Assembly: GCF_001546855.1 (NCBI RefSeq)
Contig: NZ_KQ958210.1
Coordinates: forward strand, 1-64,000
DNA from: Megasphaera sp. MJR8396C
Lineage (GTDB): Bacteria > Bacillota > Negativicutes > Veillonellales > Megasphaeraceae
DNA: 64,000 bases
Direction of reading: 5' to 3'
The number at the start of each line of letters is the position of its first letter. Positions within the stretch are counted from its first letter, which is position 1. The position numbers and the translations under genes were made by a program. Under the pieces are notes generated by a model that was not told the origin of the DNA, did no database searches, and was given only the letters and a program-made list of their open reading frames with translations. Of the stretch, positions 12,630 to 48,709 are shown in pieces.

Positions 12630-12670
12630 ACAAGGATTCTCATATCTATACAGAGAATCCTTGTTTTTTT
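12630..12670 (+). terminator. Terminator after the deacetylase gene
   Basis: A perfect 12-bp stem (ACAAGGATTCTC/GAGAATCCTTGT) is followed by a run of Ts. It separates the deacetylase transcript from the aromatic operon promoter only 5 bases further on. Confidence 0.9.
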
Positions 12671-12674
12671 AGCC

Positions 12675-12703
12675 TTGACAACTATCTCGTTGAGGTATAC
12701 AAT
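12675..12703 (+). promoter_or_regulatory. Promoter of the aromatic amino acid operon
   Basis: TTGACA (12675-12680), a 17-base spacer and TACAAT (12698-12703) form a near-consensus promoter. Transcription should start near 12710, giving a leader of about 287 bases before aroF. This leader contains the aromatic leader peptide and an intrinsic terminator. Confidence 0.85.
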
Positions 12704-12736
12704 GACGACAACGAATTTTTAAATGAGGAGATCATT

Positions 12737-12904
12737 ATGAACATGCCATGCTTACGTCAGGCAATTGAATACGTCTTTACTTATTTTGGCTGGGGCTACC
12801 TGTATTTTAGCGCTGGCTATTTTTGGTACAACGAATTCAATATGACCGATGTAGACATGAGGAGACTTCCATCTGTTCCGTTAAAGCCGGCTCTAGCCGG
12901 ATAA
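12737..12904 (+). CDS. Aromatic-rich leader peptide of the aro operon (55 aa)
   Basis: ATG 12737 with a good SD (TGAGGAG, 12724-12730) opens a 55-codon frame ending at TAA 12904. Thirteen of the 23 residues from 12 to 34 are aromatic: six Tyr, five Phe and two Trp, including a YFWY run. The frame sits between a near-consensus promoter and a terminator directly ahead of the chorismate/Phe/Tyr operon. That arrangement is what a ribosome-sensed attenuator for aromatic aminoacyl-tRNA supply would look like. The control codons are about 110-170 bases before the terminator, further than in the classic trp leader. It could alternatively be a small membrane-associated peptide. Confidence 0.75.
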   Translation: MNMPCLRQAIEYVFTYFGWGYLYFSAGYFWYNEFNMTDVDMRRLPSVPLKPALAG

Positions 12905-12944
12905 GCAAGGCGCGGATAACAGGCGAGAAATAAAGCTTTTTAGA

Positions 12945-12972
12945 AGCAGGCTCATGGGAGCCTGCTTTTTTT
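12945..12972 (+). terminator. Attenuator-type terminator ahead of aroF
   Basis: The stem AGCAGGCTC/GAGCCTGCT with a 4-base loop is followed by eight or more Ts. It lies 40 bases after the leader peptide stop and 24 bases before the aroF ATG, so it should stop transcripts before the operon unless antitermination occurs. A short hairpin CCGGC/GCCGG (12887-12899) overlaps the end of the leader peptide and carries GGCTC, which could also pair with the 3' strand of the terminator. Confidence 0.85.
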
Positions 12973-12996
12973 TATGGAAAGGGAGGAGACACGCCA

Positions 12997-14019
12997 ATGA
13001 TTATTGTGTTGAAAGCAAATACGACAAAAGAAGAAGTAAAACCATTAATGGACAGTCTGAAAGCCAAGGGAATGCAGATCGATATCAGTAAAGGCACCCG
13101 ACAGACGGTGATGGGCCTTGTCGGCAATACGGCCGTCATCGATGTGGAACAAGTCCAAAGCTATGAATTCGTTGATAAAGTCATGCGTGTCGAAGTCCCA
13201 TATAAAAGAGCCAGCCGTGCCTTCCATCCTCAAGATTCGGTTATCCCGATCGGCAATAGCGGCGTGACCATTGGTGGTAAAAAACTGGCCGTCATTGCCG
13301 GTCCCTGCTCGATTGAAACGCCGGAACAGATCGAAGGCGTCGCTTGTGACGTAGCTAAATCCGGAGCCGCTGTCCTTCGCGGCGGCGCTTTTAAACCGCG
13401 GACGTCGCCGTACTCTTTCCAGGGGCTGGGCAACAAGGGCCTCGATATGCTGAGAAATGCCGGTCGTAAGGCTAAACTTCCGGTCATTACCGAAATCATG
13501 TCGGCCGACAAACTGCCGGTATTCCTGGAAGACGGCGTCGATATCATCCAGATCGGGGCCCGCAATATGCAGAACTTCGACCTCCTTCGGGAAGTCGGCA
13601 AGACGAGAAAACCGGTCTTATTAAAAAGAGGACTCAGCGCGACCATCGAAGAATGGCTCATGTCCGCGGAATACATCATGGCTGAAGGCAACCGCAACGT
13701 CATCCTCTGTGAACGCGGCATTCGGACCTTTGAGACCTACACCCGCAATACGCTGGATTTAAGCGCCGTCCTTGCCGTCAAGCGGCAAAGCCATTTGCCT
13801 ATCGTCGTCGATCCCAGTCATGCGACAGGGAAACGCTGGATGGTGGCTGATTTAGCCAGAGCGGCCGTGGCTGCTGGTGCTGACGGACTGATGATTGAAG
13901 TACACAATAATCCCGACAAGGCGTTGTGTGACGGGGCTCAGTCGATTACGCCGGCCATGTTTACGGATCTGATGGATTCGCTTCGTAAATTAGCGCCCAT
14001 TGTCGGACGAGAATTATAA
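12997..14019 (+). CDS. aroF: 3-deoxy-7-phosphoheptulonate (DAHP) synthase, type I-beta with N-terminal regulatory domain
   Basis: This enzyme condenses phosphoenolpyruvate and erythrose 4-phosphate, the first step of the shikimate pathway. Residues 1-70 form the ferredoxin-like (FL/ACT-like) regulatory domain seen in Thermotoga- and Bacillus-type enzymes. The TIM barrel follows, with AGPCSIE (about residues 101-107), RGGAFKPRTSPYSFQG (about 128-143) and VDPSHATGKR (about 270). At 340 residues it matches the type I-beta class. It is the first gene of an eight-gene operon and a natural target for both feedback inhibition and attenuation by the leader upstream. Confidence 0.95.
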   Translation: MIIVLKANTTKEEVKPLMDSLKAKGMQIDISKGTRQTVMGLVGNTAVIDVEQVQSYEFVDKVMRVEVPYKRASRAFHPQDSVIPIGNSGVTIGGKKLAVIAGPCSIETPEQIEGVACDVAKSGAAVLRGGAFKPRTSPYSFQGLGNKGLDMLRNAGRKAKLPVITEIMSADKLPVFLEDGVDIIQIGARNMQNFDLLREVGKTRKPVLLKRGLSATIEEWLMSAEYIMAEGNRNVILCERGIRTFETYTRNTLDLSAVLAVKRQSHLPIVVDPSHATGKRWMVADLARAAVAAGADGLMIEVHNNPDKALCDGAQSITPAMFTDLMDSLRKLAPIVGREL

Positions 14020-14036
14020 GGAAAGCAGGGAGTGTA

Positions 14037-14924
14037 ATGGATACGGAAGCTAGTGGTTTTAATACGAACGAGACGGTGGCCATCATCGGACTGGGCCTCA
14101 TGGGCGGCTCCTTCGCCCGGGGCCTGCGGCGCATCGGAACGAAGCATATCATCGCTGTCGATACCGATGAAAAGGCCCTTCAAAAAGCCAAGCAGGAAGG
14201 GATGGTCGACGAGGTGTATACGACGGGGAGTACAGCTTTGCGGCGGGCCAGGATGATTATTTTCTGTACGGCGACAGCCGTCATGATTCGCTTTTTGGCG
14301 GAGCATAAGACTTGCTTTGCTCCCGGGACGATCGTAACCGACGTGGCTGGCATCAAGGGCGATACGGCCGATGCCATTAAGGCGCTGTTACCGGAAGGCG
14401 TCGACTTCATTCCCGGTCATCCCATGGCCGGTCGGGAAGGGAAAGGCTATGCCATGGCCAGTGCCGATATTTTTAATAATGCCAATTATATCCTCGTGCC
14501 TATGCCGGAGAACAAGGAAAACCACCTTCTGGCCGTTACCAGTATGGCCATGGCCCTTGGCTGTGCCCATGTCGTTCGCGTATCGCCGGAAAAACACGAT
14601 CGATTCATTGCCTATACCAGCTGCCTGCCCCACGTCTTGGCGACGGCCCTGGTCAACAGCGAATCGATGGATCCGATGACCAAATACTTCGTGGCCGGCA
14701 GTTTTCGCGACGGCACCCGCGTAGCCGATATCAATGCCGCCTTGTGGACCAGCCTGTTCTTGGCCAATAAAGAGAACCTCGTACATGAAATCGATTGCTT
14801 CCGGAAGGCCTTAACTGATTTTTCGACGATGTTGTCCGATGAAGATGCCGAAGGGATGACCCGATTTTTACAGCAAGCCGCTGCGCGGAGAAGGGACTTA
14901 GTTTATGAAACACATTCACGTTGA
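14037..14924 (+). CDS. tyrA: Prephenate dehydrogenase
   Basis: TyrA oxidatively decarboxylates prephenate to 4-hydroxyphenylpyruvate for tyrosine. The N-terminal NAD-binding fold shows VAIIGLGLMGGSFARGL (about residues 13-29), and the catalytic region includes GHPMAGREGKGY (about 128-139) with the conserved His. The 295-residue protein has no C-terminal ACT domain, so allosteric control may be weak. It starts 17 bases after aroF and its end overlaps aroB by 20 bases. Confidence 0.93.
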   Translation: MDTEASGFNTNETVAIIGLGLMGGSFARGLRRIGTKHIIAVDTDEKALQKAKQEGMVDEVYTTGSTALRRARMIIFCTATAVMIRFLAEHKTCFAPGTIVTDVAGIKGDTADAIKALLPEGVDFIPGHPMAGREGKGYAMASADIFNNANYILVPMPENKENHLLAVTSMAMALGCAHVVRVSPEKHDRFIAYTSCLPHVLATALVNSESMDPMTKYFVAGSFRDGTRVADINAALWTSLFLANKENLVHEIDCFRKALTDFSTMLSDEDAEGMTRFLQQAAARRRDLVYETHSR

Positions 14925-15978
14925 ATTAGGAAAAGATTCGTATGATATTCATATTGAAAATGGACTCCTCGACCGGGCCGGTGATTACATCCGCAGCCTG
15001 ACCAAGTCAAAGACCTTGGCGGTCATTACCGATTCTCACGTCGACGCCCTCTATGGAAAGCGCCTGGAAAATTCCCTGCAGACGGCAGGCTTTCGGGTCC
15101 ATCGCTTGGTATTTCCGGCTGGAGAAGAACATAAATGTGCCTCTTCGCTCCTCGACTTATATCAGTCCCTGTCCGATTCGGGGATTACCCGCAGCGACTA
15201 TGTCATCGCCTTTGGCGGCGGCGTCGTCGGCGACTTAGGAGGCTTTGCGGCAGCGACCTTTTTGCGGGGCATTCCTTTCATCCAGATTCCGACGACCATC
15301 ATTTCCCAGGTCGACAGCAGCGTCGGCGGGAAGGTCGGCATCGACTTGCCGAGCGGCAAGAACCAGGCCGGTAACTTTTATCAGCCCAAAGGCGTTCTCA
15401 TCGACCCGACCCTGCTGCAGACGCTGCCGAAACGATTTATCCACGACGGCATGGGGGAAGTCATTAAATACGGCTGCATCCGCGATTTAGAACTCTTCGA
15501 ACTCCTCGAAGGTCTCGATGATGAAGGGATTTTTGACCACTGGGAAGAAATCATCGAACGTTGCTGTAAGAGTAAAGCCGACCTCGTCGAACGAGACGTC
15601 CTCGACATGGGGGAACGCATGATTTTAAACTTCGGCCATACCATTGGCCATGCCATCGAAGGCTGTTACGGTTTTGGCCGTTATACTCACGGCGAAGGCG
15701 TCGCTGCTGGCATGTCGATGCTGACCGGCGTCACCGAAGCGATGGGCCTTACGAAAGAGGGTACGACGGCACGGCTGCGCAAGCTCCTTATCCGCTACGG
15801 CCTGCCCGTCGACGTCGATGCCTCGGCAGAAGACCTCATCCCCTATATCAGTAATGACAAGAAGATGCGGGGCAATCACATGACGCTCATCATTTTGAAA
15901 GAAATCGGCAAGGGAAGACTGCTTCCCCTCGAGGCAGAAGAACTGCCGAAATACATCCGAAAGAAGGTCGCTCCATGA
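14905..15978 (+). CDS. aroB: 3-dehydroquinate synthase
   Basis: AroB cyclises DAHP to 3-dehydroquinate using NAD and a divalent metal. The hallmark stretches are present: FGGGVVGDLGGFAA (about residues 101-114), PTTIISQVDSSVGGKVGID (about 127-146) and the metal-binding GHTIGHAIE (about 245-253). Length is 357 residues, normal for the family. ATG 14905 lies inside the end of tyrA, and the stop overlaps aroA as ATGA, so the three genes are translationally coupled. Confidence 0.96.
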   Translation: MKHIHVELGKDSYDIHIENGLLDRAGDYIRSLTKSKTLAVITDSHVDALYGKRLENSLQTAGFRVHRLVFPAGEEHKCASSLLDLYQSLSDSGITRSDYVIAFGGGVVGDLGGFAAATFLRGIPFIQIPTTIISQVDSSVGGKVGIDLPSGKNQAGNFYQPKGVLIDPTLLQTLPKRFIHDGMGEVIKYGCIRDLELFELLEGLDDEGIFDHWEEIIERCCKSKADLVERDVLDMGERMILNFGHTIGHAIEGCYGFGRYTHGEGVAAGMSMLTGVTEAMGLTKEGTTARLRKLLIRYGLPVDVDASAEDLIPYISNDKKMRGNHMTLIILKEIGKGRLLPLEAEELPKYIRKKVAP

Positions 15979-17261
15979 ATGTAACCATTAAACCACAGGC
16001 CTTGCAAGGGACGGTAGAAGCTCCGTCTTCCAAGAGCATCGGTCATCGCGACCTCATTTGCGCAGCCCTGGCAGACGGTGAGAGCCTGGTCGACAATATC
16101 TCCTTATCTCAGGATATCGAAGCGACGTGCCATATCTTGAACGCCCTCGGCGCCAAGATTACACCAGCGCCTTCGGCCCATCCCGGAAGATCGGCGTACC
16201 TCGTGCAGGGGGGATTACAGAAACGGCCCGGAACCTTAGCCGTCGACGCCAACGAATCGGGGTCGACCCTGCGATTCCTGGTTCCCGTCGCTGTATTAAG
16301 TGGTAACCGCTGTACTTTTTCCGGGCGAGGCCGATTAGCCAAACGGCCGCTGACCCCGTATTACAACCTCTTTGATGAAAAGAGCATTGCCTATGAGACG
16401 ACCGAAGGCGGCCTACCCCTCACCGTAGAAGGTCGCCTTGAAGCTGGAACCTACGCCCTGCAAGGCGATGTGAGCTCTCAGTTTTTTTCGGGCCTGCTCA
16501 TGACCTTGCCCCTCCTCGACGGCGATTCGCGCCTTCGCAGCACGACGCCGCTGGAATCGGCGAGCTACGTCGACATGACCATCGATTGCCTGCGCCAGCA
16601 CGGCGTCGTCATCGATAAAGAATGGGACGGTTCGTACCGCATCGCCGGCAATCAGTCCTACCGGCCGGGAACGTACACCGTCGAAGGGGATTACTCTCAA
16701 GCCGCCTTCTGGCTCTCGGCAGGGACCTTGGGCAGGGCCGTCTGCTGCACCGGCCTTCGCCAGCACTCTTCTCAGGGCGATGAAGTCATCGTATCCCTCA
16801 TCCGCGACATGGGCGGCCAAATCGAGGGCAAGACGGAATTGACGGCCTGCCCGTCGGACCTCGTCGGCCGGGTCATCGACGTCCAGGACTGCCCGGATCT
16901 GGTGCCGGTCCTGACCGTACTGGCCTCTTGTGCCAAAGGGATTACCCGCATCGTTCACGCCGGCCGGGTTCGCCTTAAAGAATGTGACCGCCTGCACGCC
17001 ATGGCCACAGAGCTTAATAAAATCGGCGGCGACGTCGAAGAAGAAGCAGAAGGCCTCATCATTCACGGCGTCGACGGCTTTACCGGCGGCACCGTCAGCG
17101 GCTGGAATGACCACCGCATCGCCATGGCCCTGGCCGTGGCCTCCCAGCGCTGCCGTCAGCCCCTGCGTATTGAAGGCGCCGAATGCGTCCGTAAATCTTA
17201 TCCTGACTTCTGGAAGGATTTCGAGACCTTGGGCGGTATGATTGAAAAGGAGGAAGGATAA
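15975..17261 (+). CDS. aroA: 3-phosphoshikimate 1-carboxyvinyltransferase (EPSP synthase)
   Basis: This enzyme transfers the enolpyruvyl group from phosphoenolpyruvate to shikimate 3-phosphate. The protein has 428 residues in the usual two-domain form. Visible family motifs are PSSKSIGHRDL (about residues 16-26), DANESGSTLRFLVP (about 90-103, the PEP-binding loop equivalent) and RLKECDRLHAMATELNKIGG (about 333-352), with a C-terminal DHRIAMALAV. The catalytic Arg/Lys/Asp positions appear intact. Confidence 0.95.
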   Translation: MNVTIKPQALQGTVEAPSSKSIGHRDLICAALADGESLVDNISLSQDIEATCHILNALGAKITPAPSAHPGRSAYLVQGGLQKRPGTLAVDANESGSTLRFLVPVAVLSGNRCTFSGRGRLAKRPLTPYYNLFDEKSIAYETTEGGLPLTVEGRLEAGTYALQGDVSSQFFSGLLMTLPLLDGDSRLRSTTPLESASYVDMTIDCLRQHGVVIDKEWDGSYRIAGNQSYRPGTYTVEGDYSQAAFWLSAGTLGRAVCCTGLRQHSSQGDEVIVSLIRDMGGQIEGKTELTACPSDLVGRVIDVQDCPDLVPVLTVLASCAKGITRIVHAGRVRLKECDRLHAMATELNKIGGDVEEEAEGLIIHGVDGFTGGTVSGWNDHRIAMALAVASQRCRQPLRIEGAECVRKSYPDFWKDFETLGGMIEKEEG

Positions 17262-17262
17262 G

Positions 17263-18354
17263 ATGAATACCTTTGGACAGACCCTCGGACTTACGATTTT
17301 CGGGGAATCCCATGGCGTCTCTATCGGAGCCGTCCTGGACGGACTTCCGGCGGGCGTCGCCATCGACTGGGATGCCGTCAACCAGGAAATGGCCCGGCGG
17401 GCACCGGGGAAGAATAAACTGTCGACGACGCGTTCGGAAAAAGATGCCTTTGAAATCCAAAGCGGATTTTTTAACGGTCATACGACGGGGACGCCTTTAT
17501 GTGCCATGATCCGCAACGGCGACCAGCATTCCCAGGATTACGATCAGCTGCGCCACATCATGCGCCCCGGCCATGCCGATTATTCCGGAAAAATCCGCTA
17601 TGGCGGCTTCAATGACTACCGTGGCGGCGGTCACTTTTCCGGTCGCTTGACGGCGCCCTTGGTCTTTGCTGGTGCCATCGCCTCCCAGATTCTGGCCAGT
17701 CAAGGTGTCGTCATCGGATCCCATATCCTGCACCTGGCCGACGTCACCGACAAGGGCTTTTCGCCTCTCGGGGAATCGACGGCTACCCTGCAGGCCTTAA
17801 AAGGGGAAACCCTTCCCGTCCTCGATAAGGAACAGGCGGCGAAGATGGAGGAACGAATCGTGGCTGCGAAAAACGACCTCGATTCCGTCGGCGGCGTCAT
17901 CGAATGCATGGTCACCGGCCTTCCGGCGGGCCTCGGCGATCCCTTTTTCGATTCTGTCGAAAGCTGTATCAGTCACATGATGTTCTCCGTTCCGGCCGTA
18001 AAAGGCATCGAGTTTGGCGACGGTTTTGCTTTGACCGGCCTTCGAGGCTCACAGGCCAACGATGCTTTCTATTACGATGATGGCGTCGTAAAGACCAAGA
18101 CCAATCACAACGGCGGCATTAACGGCGGCATTACCAACGGCATGCCCCTTATCTTCCGCCTGGCCGTTAAACCGACGTCGTCCATCAGTCAGAGCCAGGA
18201 TACCATCGATACGGATACGCAGGAAAACTGCCAATTGGTCATCAAAGGGCGCCACGATCCGTGCATCGTCCAACGGGCCGTTCCCGTCGTCGAAGCGGCT
18301 GCGGCCTGGGCCATTCTCGACGTCTGGCTGTCGGCGAAAGGGCGGTGTCTGTAA
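17263..18354 (+). CDS. aroC: Chorismate synthase
   Basis: AroC eliminates phosphate from EPSP to give chorismate, using reduced FMN. The N-terminus carries FGESHGVSIGAVLDGLP (about residues 14-30) and the middle RPGHADYSGKIRYGGFNDYRGGG (in two parts, about 104-127), both diagnostic. ATG 17263 is preceded by AAAGGAGGAAGG. An in-frame TTG at 17242 lies before that SD and is not the start. The 363-residue length is normal. The stop TAA shares its last base with the pheA ATG. Confidence 0.95.
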   Translation: MNTFGQTLGLTIFGESHGVSIGAVLDGLPAGVAIDWDAVNQEMARRAPGKNKLSTTRSEKDAFEIQSGFFNGHTTGTPLCAMIRNGDQHSQDYDQLRHIMRPGHADYSGKIRYGGFNDYRGGGHFSGRLTAPLVFAGAIASQILASQGVVIGSHILHLADVTDKGFSPLGESTATLQALKGETLPVLDKEQAAKMEERIVAAKNDLDSVGGVIECMVTGLPAGLGDPFFDSVESCISHMMFSVPAVKGIEFGDGFALTGLRGSQANDAFYYDDGVVKTKTNHNGGINGGITNGMPLIFRLAVKPTSSISQSQDTIDTDTQENCQLVIKGRHDPCIVQRAVPVVEAAAAWAILDVWLSAKGRCL

Positions 18355-19205
18355 TGGAGGATGCAGGGGAGGAGAAGCTGGGTATCGCTTGTTTCGGAAG
18401 GCCCGGATCCTATACGGATGAAGCCATGAATCTCTATTTCCATGACCGGGAGTTTGAGGCGGCCTATTACCCTCATTTTGAAGACGTCGTCCAAGCCGTG
18501 TCCTCGAGGAAGGTCCGCTACGGCGTCTTGCCCATTGAAAATTCCTCGACGGGCGGCATCACCGATGTCTATGATTTTATCCATCGCTATGACTGCTGTA
18601 TCGTCGGAGAAAAATACGTCAAGATAGACCATTGCCTGCTCGGATTGCCGGGGACATCCATTGACGAGCTCCGCGAGGTTTACTCCCATATCCAGGGCTT
18701 TCATCAGTGTCGGAATTATCTAAAGCGCCATGAAGATTGGCAGCTTCACCCTTATTTCAGCACGTCAGAGAGTGCCGAAAAGGTCCGGGAAATGAAAAAT
18801 CCCCACATTGGGGCCATTGCCAATCGGACGGCAGCCGGGATGTACGGCCTCGACGTGCTGGCCGAATCGATCAATGACAATAGGCAGAACTATACTCGTT
18901 TTTTCATCATTACTTCTGACCGGGAAGAAGTGCCGGGCGCCGATAAAATCACTTTGGTCCTGACGACCCAGCACCGCCCCGGGGCCTTGTATCACGTCTT
19001 GGGCTACTTTTTCTACAACGGCATGAATATGACGCACTTGGAGTCGCGGCCCCTTAAAGGCAGGCCCTTTGAATACTTTTTCCATATCGATGTCATGGGA
19101 AATCTAAGCGATCCGGCAACGGCTCGGGTGCTTCGCAATCTGGCAGAAAACTGTAACTACTTTAAAATTCTAGGGAATTATGTATCCGACCGAGGAGGGA
19201 TTTAG
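18354..19205 (+). CDS. pheA: Prephenate dehydratase with C-terminal ACT domain
   Basis: PheA converts prephenate to phenylpyruvate for phenylalanine. The catalytic domain shows FGRPGSYTDEA (about residues 14-24), LPIENSSTGGITDVYD (about 59-75) and the catalytic TRF motif in NYTRFFII (about 178-185). The ACT domain (ITLVLTTQHRPGALYHVLG, about 198-216, and LESRPLKGRPFEYFF) is the site of feedback by phenylalanine in relatives. There is no chorismate mutase domain. ATG 18354 overlaps the aroC stop; longer in-frame extensions lie inside aroC and lack a better start. The length is 283 residues. Confidence 0.93.
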   Translation: MEDAGEEKLGIACFGRPGSYTDEAMNLYFHDREFEAAYYPHFEDVVQAVSSRKVRYGVLPIENSSTGGITDVYDFIHRYDCCIVGEKYVKIDHCLLGLPGTSIDELREVYSHIQGFHQCRNYLKRHEDWQLHPYFSTSESAEKVREMKNPHIGAIANRTAAGMYGLDVLAESINDNRQNYTRFFIITSDREEVPGADKITLVLTTQHRPGALYHVLGYFFYNGMNMTHLESRPLKGRPFEYFFHIDVMGNLSDPATARVLRNLAENCNYFKILGNYVSDRGGI

Positions 19206-20039
19206 ATGAAGTTAGGCGTCATCGGAGCCAAGCTGGGCCATACGGCTTCTCCGGCAATCCACGACAAACTGTTTCGCATCTTACAAGTTCAGGACCGATC
19301 TCGCTACGGCGTCTTAGAAATGGACCGCAACGACATCCCCAATGAACTGCAGCGCCTTCGCCGTGAAGGTTATACCGGGGCCAATGTCACCATTCCGTAT
19401 AAACTCGACGTCATGCCTTATTTGACGGATATTTCTCGGGAAGCCCGCATCATCGGCGCCGTCAATACGATTCATTTTACGGACCACGGTACCTTCGGAT
19501 ACAATACAGATTACTGCGGTTTCGGCCGGTCGTTGGCTCATGCCGGCATCTCCGTAAAAGATAAGGACTGTGTCGTCCTCGGGTCCGGCGGAGGGGCCCG
19601 GGCCATCATTCAGTATCTCTTCGATTACGGGGCGAAATCCATCGTCGTCGTATCGAGGCATCCCCACTCGAAGTCGGAATTCGAGGCTTTTACGAAACAC
19701 ATCGGGGTCAACATCATCGATTATCATACCTTTGAACTGTCTGGTCGCGGTGATCTCCTGGTCAACTGTACGCCTGTCGGCATGTTTCCCAATATTGACG
19801 GCTGTCCCATATCGGAAGGGGCTATCGCCCGATTCCCGGCCGTCGTCGATATCGTGTACAACCCGAAAGATACCTGCATCCTGCAGGCTGCCAAACGCCA
19901 CGGGGCCAGGACCTTGAACGGCATGTACATGCTCGTCGCTCAGGCCATTGGTTCTGAAGAAATTTGGATGGATCAGGATATTGCATCGAACGTGATTGAA
20001 CAAATTGCAAGGGAGATGGAACATTATTATGAAAAATAA
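19206..20039 (+). CDS. aroE: Shikimate dehydrogenase (NADP+)
   Basis: AroE reduces 3-dehydroshikimate to shikimate in the biosynthetic direction. The substrate loop GAKLGHTASPAIHDK (about residues 6-20), NVTIPYK with the catalytic Lys (about 60-66), NTDYCGF (about 99-105) and the dinucleotide loop VLGSGGGARAI (about 121-131) are all present. The 277-residue length is typical. A second paralogue is encoded on the other strand at 22617-23495, so this in-operon copy is probably the biosynthetic one. Confidence 0.93.
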   Translation: MKLGVIGAKLGHTASPAIHDKLFRILQVQDRSRYGVLEMDRNDIPNELQRLRREGYTGANVTIPYKLDVMPYLTDISREARIIGAVNTIHFTDHGTFGYNTDYCGFGRSLAHAGISVKDKDCVVLGSGGGARAIIQYLFDYGAKSIVVVSRHPHSKSEFEAFTKHIGVNIIDYHTFELSGRGDLLVNCTPVGMFPNIDGCPISEGAIARFPAVVDIVYNPKDTCILQAAKRHGARTLNGMYMLVAQAIGSEEIWMDQDIASNVIEQIAREMEHYYEK

Positions 20040-20532
20040 ACAGAACATCATTATCATCGGCATGCCCGGCAGCGGCAAGACGACTTTCGGACAGGCCTTA
20101 GCCCAGCGGCTGGGGCGGAAATTTTACGATGCCGACGACGTCATCGTGGCCCAAGAAGGAAAAACGATTCCCGAACTCTTTGCTGTCAGTGAAGACTGCT
20201 TCCGCGATGCCGAAGTACGGGCCAGCAAAGCTTTAGCAGCCAAAGAAGGGACGGTCGTCGCCTGCGGCGGCGGCGTCATCAAGCGCTCGGAAAATATTGA
20301 GATATTTAAACAGACGGGGATCGTCTTTTTTCTCGATCGTTCTCCCGATGACATCGTCAGCGACGTTGATGTCTCGACGAGACCCCTCTTAAAAGACGGC
20401 AAGAAGAAAGTGTACGACCTCTACGACGAACGCATTTCCTTATACCGACAGGCGGCTGACTATCACATTGCCAACGATAGGACGATCGAAGAAGTTCTCG
20501 ATGATTTTGAAGCCTTGATCGAAAATATTTAA
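20029..20532 (+). CDS. aroK: Shikimate kinase
   Basis: AroK phosphorylates shikimate at the 3-hydroxyl. The P-loop GMPGSGKTTFG (about residues 11-21), DADDVI (substrate-binding Asp, about 34-39) and CGGGVI (about 80-85) identify it. ATG 20029 overlaps the last 11 bases of aroE and is preceded by AAGGGAGATGG; the in-frame TTG at 19996 lies before that SD. The 167-residue length is standard. It is the last gene of the operon. Confidence 0.94.
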   Translation: MKNKQNIIIIGMPGSGKTTFGQALAQRLGRKFYDADDVIVAQEGKTIPELFAVSEDCFRDAEVRASKALAAKEGTVVACGGGVIKRSENIEIFKQTGIVFFLDRSPDDIVSDVDVSTRPLLKDGKKKVYDLYDERISLYRQAADYHIANDRTIEEVLDDFEALIENI

Positions 20533-48417: not shown

Positions 48418-48709
48418 TCAATTGAACATCGTCCATGAAACCATTGAGGCGGAAGTAAAAACGATGACGTGCACGTACAGAGAGCCGGGGGGCTGAGAGC
48501 CGGCCGACGCAGCTCGTTAAATGGACCGCTGAGGGCGCAGTCAAAGGCCGCAAGGCTGAGTATCCTGCGACGTGTTGGTATACGTCAGTTACCGGGAATA
48601 TGTTGGTATTCCGTCGAGAGTAGGGATCAAACCCTAAAACAAGGTGGCACCGCGGAACTTAAATCCGTCCTTGACAAATCGTATTGTCATGGACGGATTA
48701 TTTTTTTTT
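48418..48709 (+). promoter_or_regulatory. T-box riboswitch, tryptophan type
   Basis: The roughly 290-base leader has the T-box hallmarks: an early AGAGAG motif (48479-48484), a long stem I, the conserved T-box sequence AAGGTGGCACCGCGG (48641-48655), and a terminator. The probable specifier loop contains TGG (48522-48524, in AAATGGACC), matching tRNA-Trp and the downstream genes. Uncharged tRNA should pair with both specifier and T-box sequence and favour the antiterminator. Confidence 0.9.
48662..48709 (+). terminator. T-box terminator
   Basis: AATCCGTCC...TGACAA and TTGTCA...GGACGGATT form a strong hairpin followed by nine Ts. The 5' arm directly follows the T-box sequence, allowing the usual antiterminator alternative. 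Confidence 0.92.

Follow-up and report, generated by a model that had tools for sequence, protein, structure and literature searches.

The 64-kb stretch of Megasphaera DNA analysed here (the window) contains an eight-gene aro operon that is preceded by a promoter, a short open reading frame (ORF) rich in aromatic codons, and an intrinsic terminator (Table 1). The NCBIfam models assign the operon genes, in order, to DAHP synthase, prephenate dehydrogenase, aroB, aroA, aroC, prephenate dehydratase, aroE, and shikimate kinase; the scores of tyrA, aroE, and aroK fall below the curated cut-offs, but their best families nonetheless agree. Within the leader ORF, codons 12, 14, 16, 17, 19, 21, 23, 24, 28, 29, 30, 31, and 34 are aromatic. 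Thus, 13 of the 23 residues from codon 12 to codon 34 are Phe (five), Tyr (six), or Trp (two), and no other 23-codon stretch in the six frames of the window holds 13 aromatic residues. A preliminary description of this DNA had listed the promoter, the Shine-Dalgarno sequence (SD), the 55-codon ORF with its aromatic stretch, the terminator, and the operon, and all of them lie where it placed them. The upstream gene, for a polysaccharide deacetylase, is followed by a separate terminator-like hairpin (AAGGATTCTC...GAGAATCCTT plus a T-run, 12632-12671), which gives the aro leader the look of a transcription unit of its own.

Table 1. Positions of the leader elements and the aro operon in the window.
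Feature	Position	Strand	Details and basis
Sigma-70-type promoter, TTGACA-17-TACAAT	12675..12703	+	TTGACA 12675-12680, 17-nt spacer, TACAAT 12698-12703 (11/12 consensus); sequence, with similar elements visible in leaders of relatives
Shine-Dalgarno GAGGAGA of leader ORF	12725..12731	+	
Leader ORF, 55 codons, MNMPCLRQAIEYVFTYFGWGYLYFSAGYFWYNEFNMTDVDMRRLPSVPLKPALAG	12737..12904	+	ATG 12737, stop TAA 12902-12904
Putative control codons (Phe, Tyr, possibly Trp)	codons 12-34 of leader ORF	+	
Segment 1, 5' side of ORF hairpin	12747..12774	+	CAUG 12747-12750, UUACGUC 12752-12758, AUUGAAU 12764-12770, CGU 12772-12774; fold and swap test
Core hairpin, codons 17-29, FGWGYLYFSAGYF	12785..12823	+	stems 12787-12793/12813-12819 and 12795-12798/12808-12811; conserved core, RNA stem
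Segment 2, 3' side of ORF hairpin	12831..12861	+	ACG 12831-12833, AUUCAAU 12835-12841, GAUGUAG 12848-12854, CAUG 12856-12859; fold and swap tests
Antiterminator strand CAUGAG, within leader ORF	12856..12861	+	pairs with CUCAUG 12951-12956
Segment 3, terminator 5' arm (12942-12953) and loop	12942..12956	+	contains CUCAUG 12951-12956
Segment 4, intrinsic terminator 3' arm and U-tract	12958..12973	+	12-bp stem 12942-12953/12958-12969, then U-tract
aroF-tyrA-aroB-aroA-aroC-pheA-aroE-aroK operon	12997..20532	+	NCBIfam

The only noteworthy Rfam match in the window is a T-box before the trp genes (48435-48675; E = 8e-17; 84.3 bits, below the Rfam gathering score of 93), which shows that the trp T-box noted in the preliminary description is real. 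The same covariance model search (RF00230) found no T-box upstream of the window's aroF, and T-box control of this aro operon was therefore rejected.

Relatives of the leader were gathered by DNA search, with a peptide HMM, and then with a covariance model of the core hairpin. By DNA search and HMM, the leader was found across the genus of the window and in numerous families of its class. Named matches include Megasphaera massiliensis, M. cerevisiae, and M. micronuciformis among the Negativicutes, as well as Clostridium magnum, C. carboxidivorans, C. drakei, C. thailandense, and C. muellerianum; C. magnum accounts for three leader copies in the named matches, and a fourth was also found. The covariance model matched 107 of 381 class genomes, representing 46 of 102 genera, and 18 of 21 newly fetched sites lie within aromatic-rich short ORFs, each with an aro gene downstream. 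At least one leader was inspected in each of 17 families of the class (f1, f2, f5, f7, f8, f10, f11, f15, f20, f25, f27, f28, f29, f31, f32, f34, and f35). Further Firmicutes families were added from a 399-genome sample of the phylum, which, with the named matches, also provided the sampling inside the Clostridia. In Negativicutes, Clostridium, and other Firmicutes alike, the leader stands almost always ahead of an aro gene; in the fetched Negativicutes loci, aroF, tyrA, aroA, or aroK lies 3' of it.

The fetched loci share a short ORF, mostly preceded by an SD (an SD-like motif lies ahead of 63 of 77 ORFs, whose starts were partly chosen by SD score), and a core of the form F[SGNDT][WQRL][GS]Y-(x)-[FY]S[AVFT]G[YF]F. 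A terminator was detected 56-139 nt 3' of the core in 60 distinct leaders. The 12-13 residue core is much better conserved than the rest of the peptide, both ends of which vary freely in sequence and length. Comparison across Negativicutes, as the preliminary description had proposed, shows a recurring frame, aromatic core, and terminator with drifting peptide ends. These elements recur across the class and the phylum, which is more than chance would give. Nor is the leader a local oddity: many Negativicutes use it regularly at aro, and it is also present in Clostridium and further Firmicutes.

The peptide core, FSWGY-FSAGYF, doubles as an RNA hairpin of 36-39 nt, which RNAalifold predicts unaided. 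Its common form, UAGCUGG.GCUA-loop-UAGC.CCGGCUA, is one hairpin with a simple 11-12 bp stem and a loop of variable length; the idea of a UAGC..GCUA mini-hairpin within each FSxGY repeat was dropped, as the two repeats pair with each other. Changes in the peptide follow this stem. When the core Trp (UGG) is replaced by Gln (CAA), Ala (GCC) is replaced by Val (GUU), and further paired states are Tyr/Tyr (UAU/UAU), Leu/Ala (UUG/GCA), Arg/Ala, and Gln/Phe. Overall, 87.9% of the core stem cells are paired, versus 23-45% when the partners are slid, and changes on both sides of the stem occur in 34 cells, versus 8.8 ± 4.1 in shuffled data (0 of 500 shuffles). The count obtained before members from the hairpin model were added, 20 versus 8.5 (0 of 500), is the cleaner one, because some later members were found with that model itself. 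Codon choice in the core is also far from background, with Phe encoded by TTT in 38 of 38 cases at two positions and Ser by AGY in 65 of 65. Leader ORFs fold better than their synonymous recodings (mean z of -2.15, n = 77), compared with -0.03 for control segments of aro genes, and the window leader RNA folds far better than its dinucleotide shuffles (z of -4.6). Thus, the core amino acids covary in a way that keeps base pairs, and Trp at this place is not necessarily a control codon.

Most plausibly, the core hairpin would act as a pause and nucleation hairpin that synchronises the polymerase with the ribosome. A signature at fixed distance 3' of the hairpin, comprising ca. 4 U-rich nt, a U at +8 in 91% of leaders, and G and C at +9 and +10 in ca. 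60%, is suggestive of a polymerase pause signal. In the window (12820-12845) and in relatives, the RNA 3' of the core hairpin is unusually conserved, with a U-run, UGC, and an A-rich stretch; this could reflect a site of polymerase pausing or a longer stem.

To describe the switch, we refer to the segments of Table 1 by number. The ribosome-free window RNA is predicted to form both the terminator and a helix between segment 1 (12747-12774) and segment 2 (12831-12859), so that without a stalled ribosome CAUG 12856-12859 is sequestered in the long ORF hairpin. When stalls were simulated at codons 24-34 with the polymerase at the terminator loop, CAUGAG was predicted to pair with CUCAUG, and 4 bp were added beside it by CUUC 12866-12869 and GAAG 12943-12946. 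The preliminary description had suggested folding with ribosomes stalled at codons 12, 19, and 31, and the antiterminator formed in each case; a stall at codon 17 gave a competing structure from which it was absent. With the full terminator included, the minimum-energy fold was always the terminator. The 2:3 helix of the window has only 6 bp plus 4 bp to set against the 12 bp of the terminator, so antitermination must be kinetic.

The alternative helices were also assessed with swap tests, in which the duplex energy of cognate partners was compared with that of partners exchanged between families in 40 dereplicated leaders. Segment 2 favored the 5' arm and loop of the terminator from the same leader (mean rank 0.29, p = 6e-5), whereas two control pairings were null (p = 0.38 and 0.39). 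For the 1:2 helix, cognate partners averaged -28.1 kcal/mol and swapped partners -18.8 kcal/mol (p = 1.7e-8), again with null controls (p = 0.21 and 0.28). The antiterminator pair, CAUGAG:CUCAUG in the window, is AUUAAUGAGUU:GACUCAUUAAU in L058, GAGAACCUUU:AAGAGGUUCUU in L091, and CGUAA..AGA.GCC:GGC.UCU.UUACG in L062. The 2:3 partners are thus wholly different between families, which amounts to large-scale covariation. The segment 2 element is conserved as RNA, because it is kept in L009 (ACAUGGG) though out of the Met-Arg frame and is placed 3' of the stop codon in L082 and L087 (CGUAAACAG). Under simulated stall, at least 5 bp of pairing between the downstream RNA and the terminator arm was predicted in 58 of 60 leaders; in the same simulation, many ribosome-free transcripts likewise paired with that arm before the 3' arm existed. 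Both the window fold and the covariation indicate that the 2:3 helix and the terminator are mutually exclusive. The 1:2 helix, in turn, sequesters the antiterminator strand and overlaps the control codons, and a ribosome located at those codons would be expected to disrupt it. The preliminary description, which had not located an antiterminator strand, held that the mechanism may differ from the textbook one. With the strand found and its pairing covarying across families, the arrangement instead follows the textbook 1:2 / 2:3 / 3:4 logic.

As to the amino acids that are sensed, the 77 distinct peptides contain on average 6.3 Phe, 5.0 Tyr, and 1.1 Trp codons. The proposal that all three aromatic amino acids are read has to be narrowed, because Phe and Tyr dominate and the core Trp belongs to the RNA stem. 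Sensing of Trp is possible, given that many lineages retain Trp elsewhere in the peptide and that the window leader has two, at codons 19 and 30. These two codons, and the presence of at least one Trp in 64 of the 77 peptides, could also be taken to mean that the attenuator senses tryptophan alone, as enteric trpL does. We consider this very unlikely, because Trp is absent from 13 of the 77 peptides while Tyr is absent from none and Phe from one, Gln, Arg, Leu, or Tyr can stand in place of the core Trp with matching substitutions across the stem, and the trp genes of the window have their own T-box.

The strong conservation of the 12-13 residue core relative to the remaining peptide would also suit an arrest peptide, in which an aromatic amino acid or metabolite is recognised by nascent FSWGYFYFSAGYF within the ribosome tunnel, much as tryptophan is by TnaC, and arrest rather than hungry codons drives antitermination. 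The Phe/Tyr pattern fits either an RNA or an arrest-peptide role; however, substitutions of the core Trp and of the non-aromatic core residues track the base pairs through all of the paired states given above, and, together with the biased codons, this points to a constraint at the RNA level. An arrest motif made of the core Trp, Ser, Ala, and Gly was dropped, since the hairpin accounts for these residues, and the arrest peptide as a whole seems to us improbable. A covarying hairpin that can be found by covariance model alone might instead be a riboswitch aptamer or a protein-binding site with the ORF incidental to it, but a simple stem with a variable loop, crossed in the leaders examined by an aromatic-rich frame with a start codon and matching no Rfam class, makes a poor candidate, and we give this reading very little credence. 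Least probable of all is that the product of the ORF is a functional small (membrane) protein, with the terminator doing no more than trimming operon expression. Its 55 codons, aromatic richness, and own promoter and SD are compatible with such a protein; its freely varying ends and its near-constant position before aro genes with a covarying terminator and antiterminator speak against it. The preliminary description had named a stable protein with its own role as a finding that would overturn its reading, and the peptide matches no Pfam or NCBIfam family and has core residues that follow base-pairing.

We conclude that the leader in the window very probably attenuates transcription of the common aromatic pathway by a ribosome-mediated mechanism. 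Peptide-based attenuation of this pathway, as first proposed in the preliminary description, is strongly supported by comparative evidence, namely the ORF, the terminator, three covarying helices, and gene linkage; the starvation response, the stalling, the pausing role of the core hairpin, and the amino acids that count are what we infer from it. Transcription would start just 3' of the promoter, and a ribosome would begin translating the 55-codon leader, to stall among codons 12-34 whenever charged tRNA-Phe or tRNA-Tyr (perhaps tRNA-Trp as well) is scarce. The stall would open the 1:2 hairpin, freeing CAUGAG to capture CUCAUG in the nascent terminator arm. With segments 2 and 3 paired, the terminator (3:4) would be blocked and aroF-aroK transcribed. 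If aromatics were plentiful, or no ribosome were present, segment 2 would be translated through or would re-pair with segment 1; with segment 2 so occupied, the terminator would form and transcription would stop. Against the attenuation reading we count the short 2:3 helix of the window, the competing fold at codon 17, the arm pairing of many ribosome-free transcripts, and the codons 3' of segment 2, which have no clear role. A broader proposal, which we offer tentatively and would not put at even odds, is that the leader is an ancient Firmicutes-wide attenuator in which one stretch of RNA is both a Phe, Tyr, and Trp codon sensor and a structured pause or switch element, with a peptide that evolves to preserve base pairs. 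Such a leader would bring the three aromatic signals together where the shikimate pathway begins and would trade places with T-boxes over evolution.

The trpL, pheL, pheST, and hisL leaders of enteric bacteria are ribosome-mediated attenuators. The element described here resembles them in its short ORF rich in end-product codons, its 1:2, 2:3, and 3:4 helices, and its intrinsic terminator before a biosynthetic operon. It departs from them in that the ORF is longer (36-57 codons) and as a rule contains segment 2, that control codons, for two or three amino acids, are spread over ca. 23 codons within a hairpin of the coding sequence, and that its target takes in the entire chorismate pathway as well as tyrA and pheA; we do not claim that the sequences are related. 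Neither the leader RNA (searched against Rfam) nor the peptide (against Pfam and NCBIfam) matched a family. A full-text search, which covers subscription journals thinly so that an earlier report is possible, found no published description of the aro leader. The closest published elements differ in several respects. The uORFC-13-1 motif, known from 24 examples in Acholeplasma and environmental sequences, has a predicted uORF with at least one Phe codon, a terminator before aroF, and another paired substructure, but its published description, on which our comparison is based, mentions no FSWGY-FSAGY core (PMC8632094). Leader peptides with runs of His codons and a terminator are reported to replace T-boxes at histidine genes in narrow lineages of Firmicutes, and the available portions of these reports mention no conserved coding-region hairpin (PMC2965389, PMC9413887). 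A gbs2033-type candidate cis-element with attenuation upstream of aroFBC-tyrA in another Firmicute, E. faecium, was proposed to be a riboswitch, and the wording 'leader peptide' is absent from that paper (PMC4448216). Thus, the mechanism is of a known kind, while the element is apparently an undescribed and widespread variant in which the coding region does double duty. It fills a gap in our view of chorismate pathway control in Firmicutes without an aro T-box, makes peptide attenuation a regular system in Firmicutes rather than an enteric speciality, and is a clear example of amino acid changes in a coding sequence that track RNA base pairs (Trp/Ala with Gln/Val). The covariance model and HMM that detect it are easily rebuilt from the loci given.

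In sister families of the Negativicutes, the same gene, aroF, is controlled by T-boxes, which also respond to uncharged tRNA but read it directly, without translation. Among 16 aroF loci searched in other families of the class, a T-box adjoins aroF in 10. The leader is present in two loci of family f29. Judging from these sequences, the leader exchanges with T-boxes at aroF, and the occurrence of both in one class makes the exchange of two tRNA-charging sensors directly testable. In f3 genomes, which by kinship are probably Veillonella, a divergent aromatic leader precedes aroF (L115, L118, L119, and L120). That of L115 (1100-1530) is MTNQISLTAKQYFYWFFIQRTGKELFVMR, an example of the peptide in the f3 set is QYFYWFFIQRTGKELF, and in L115 and L118 UACGGGUA faces UACCCGUA in the terminator by eye; this leader is either a shorter cousin or an independent invention. 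No clear aroF was found in four f4 and two f2 genomes, which gave only weak KdsA-like matches or nothing.

Six matches to the hairpin model (L207, L213, L215, L225, L227, and L228) were set aside as unconvincing leaders, chance or degenerate. In one of these, L207 (700-900, genome G131), a degenerate core hairpin has a CoA-transferase-like gene nearby but no detected aro gene, and is possibly a relic or a chance match. Several loci carry more than one leader. Copies occur before aroF or a shikimate-kinase-like gene in Clostridium (L103, L105, L106, L108, L109, and L111), and one copy in L108 precedes a different, AroG-like DAHP synthase. L058 (1-9001, genome G123) has three leaders in series, each before an aroF-type DAHP synthase gene or fragment. 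In a genome of the window's own genus (G006, L014:1-6001), a second leader stands immediately 5' of the aro leader and its operon. It precedes a gene whose product is ACT-domain-like, and the element may control an additional aromatic-related gene there.
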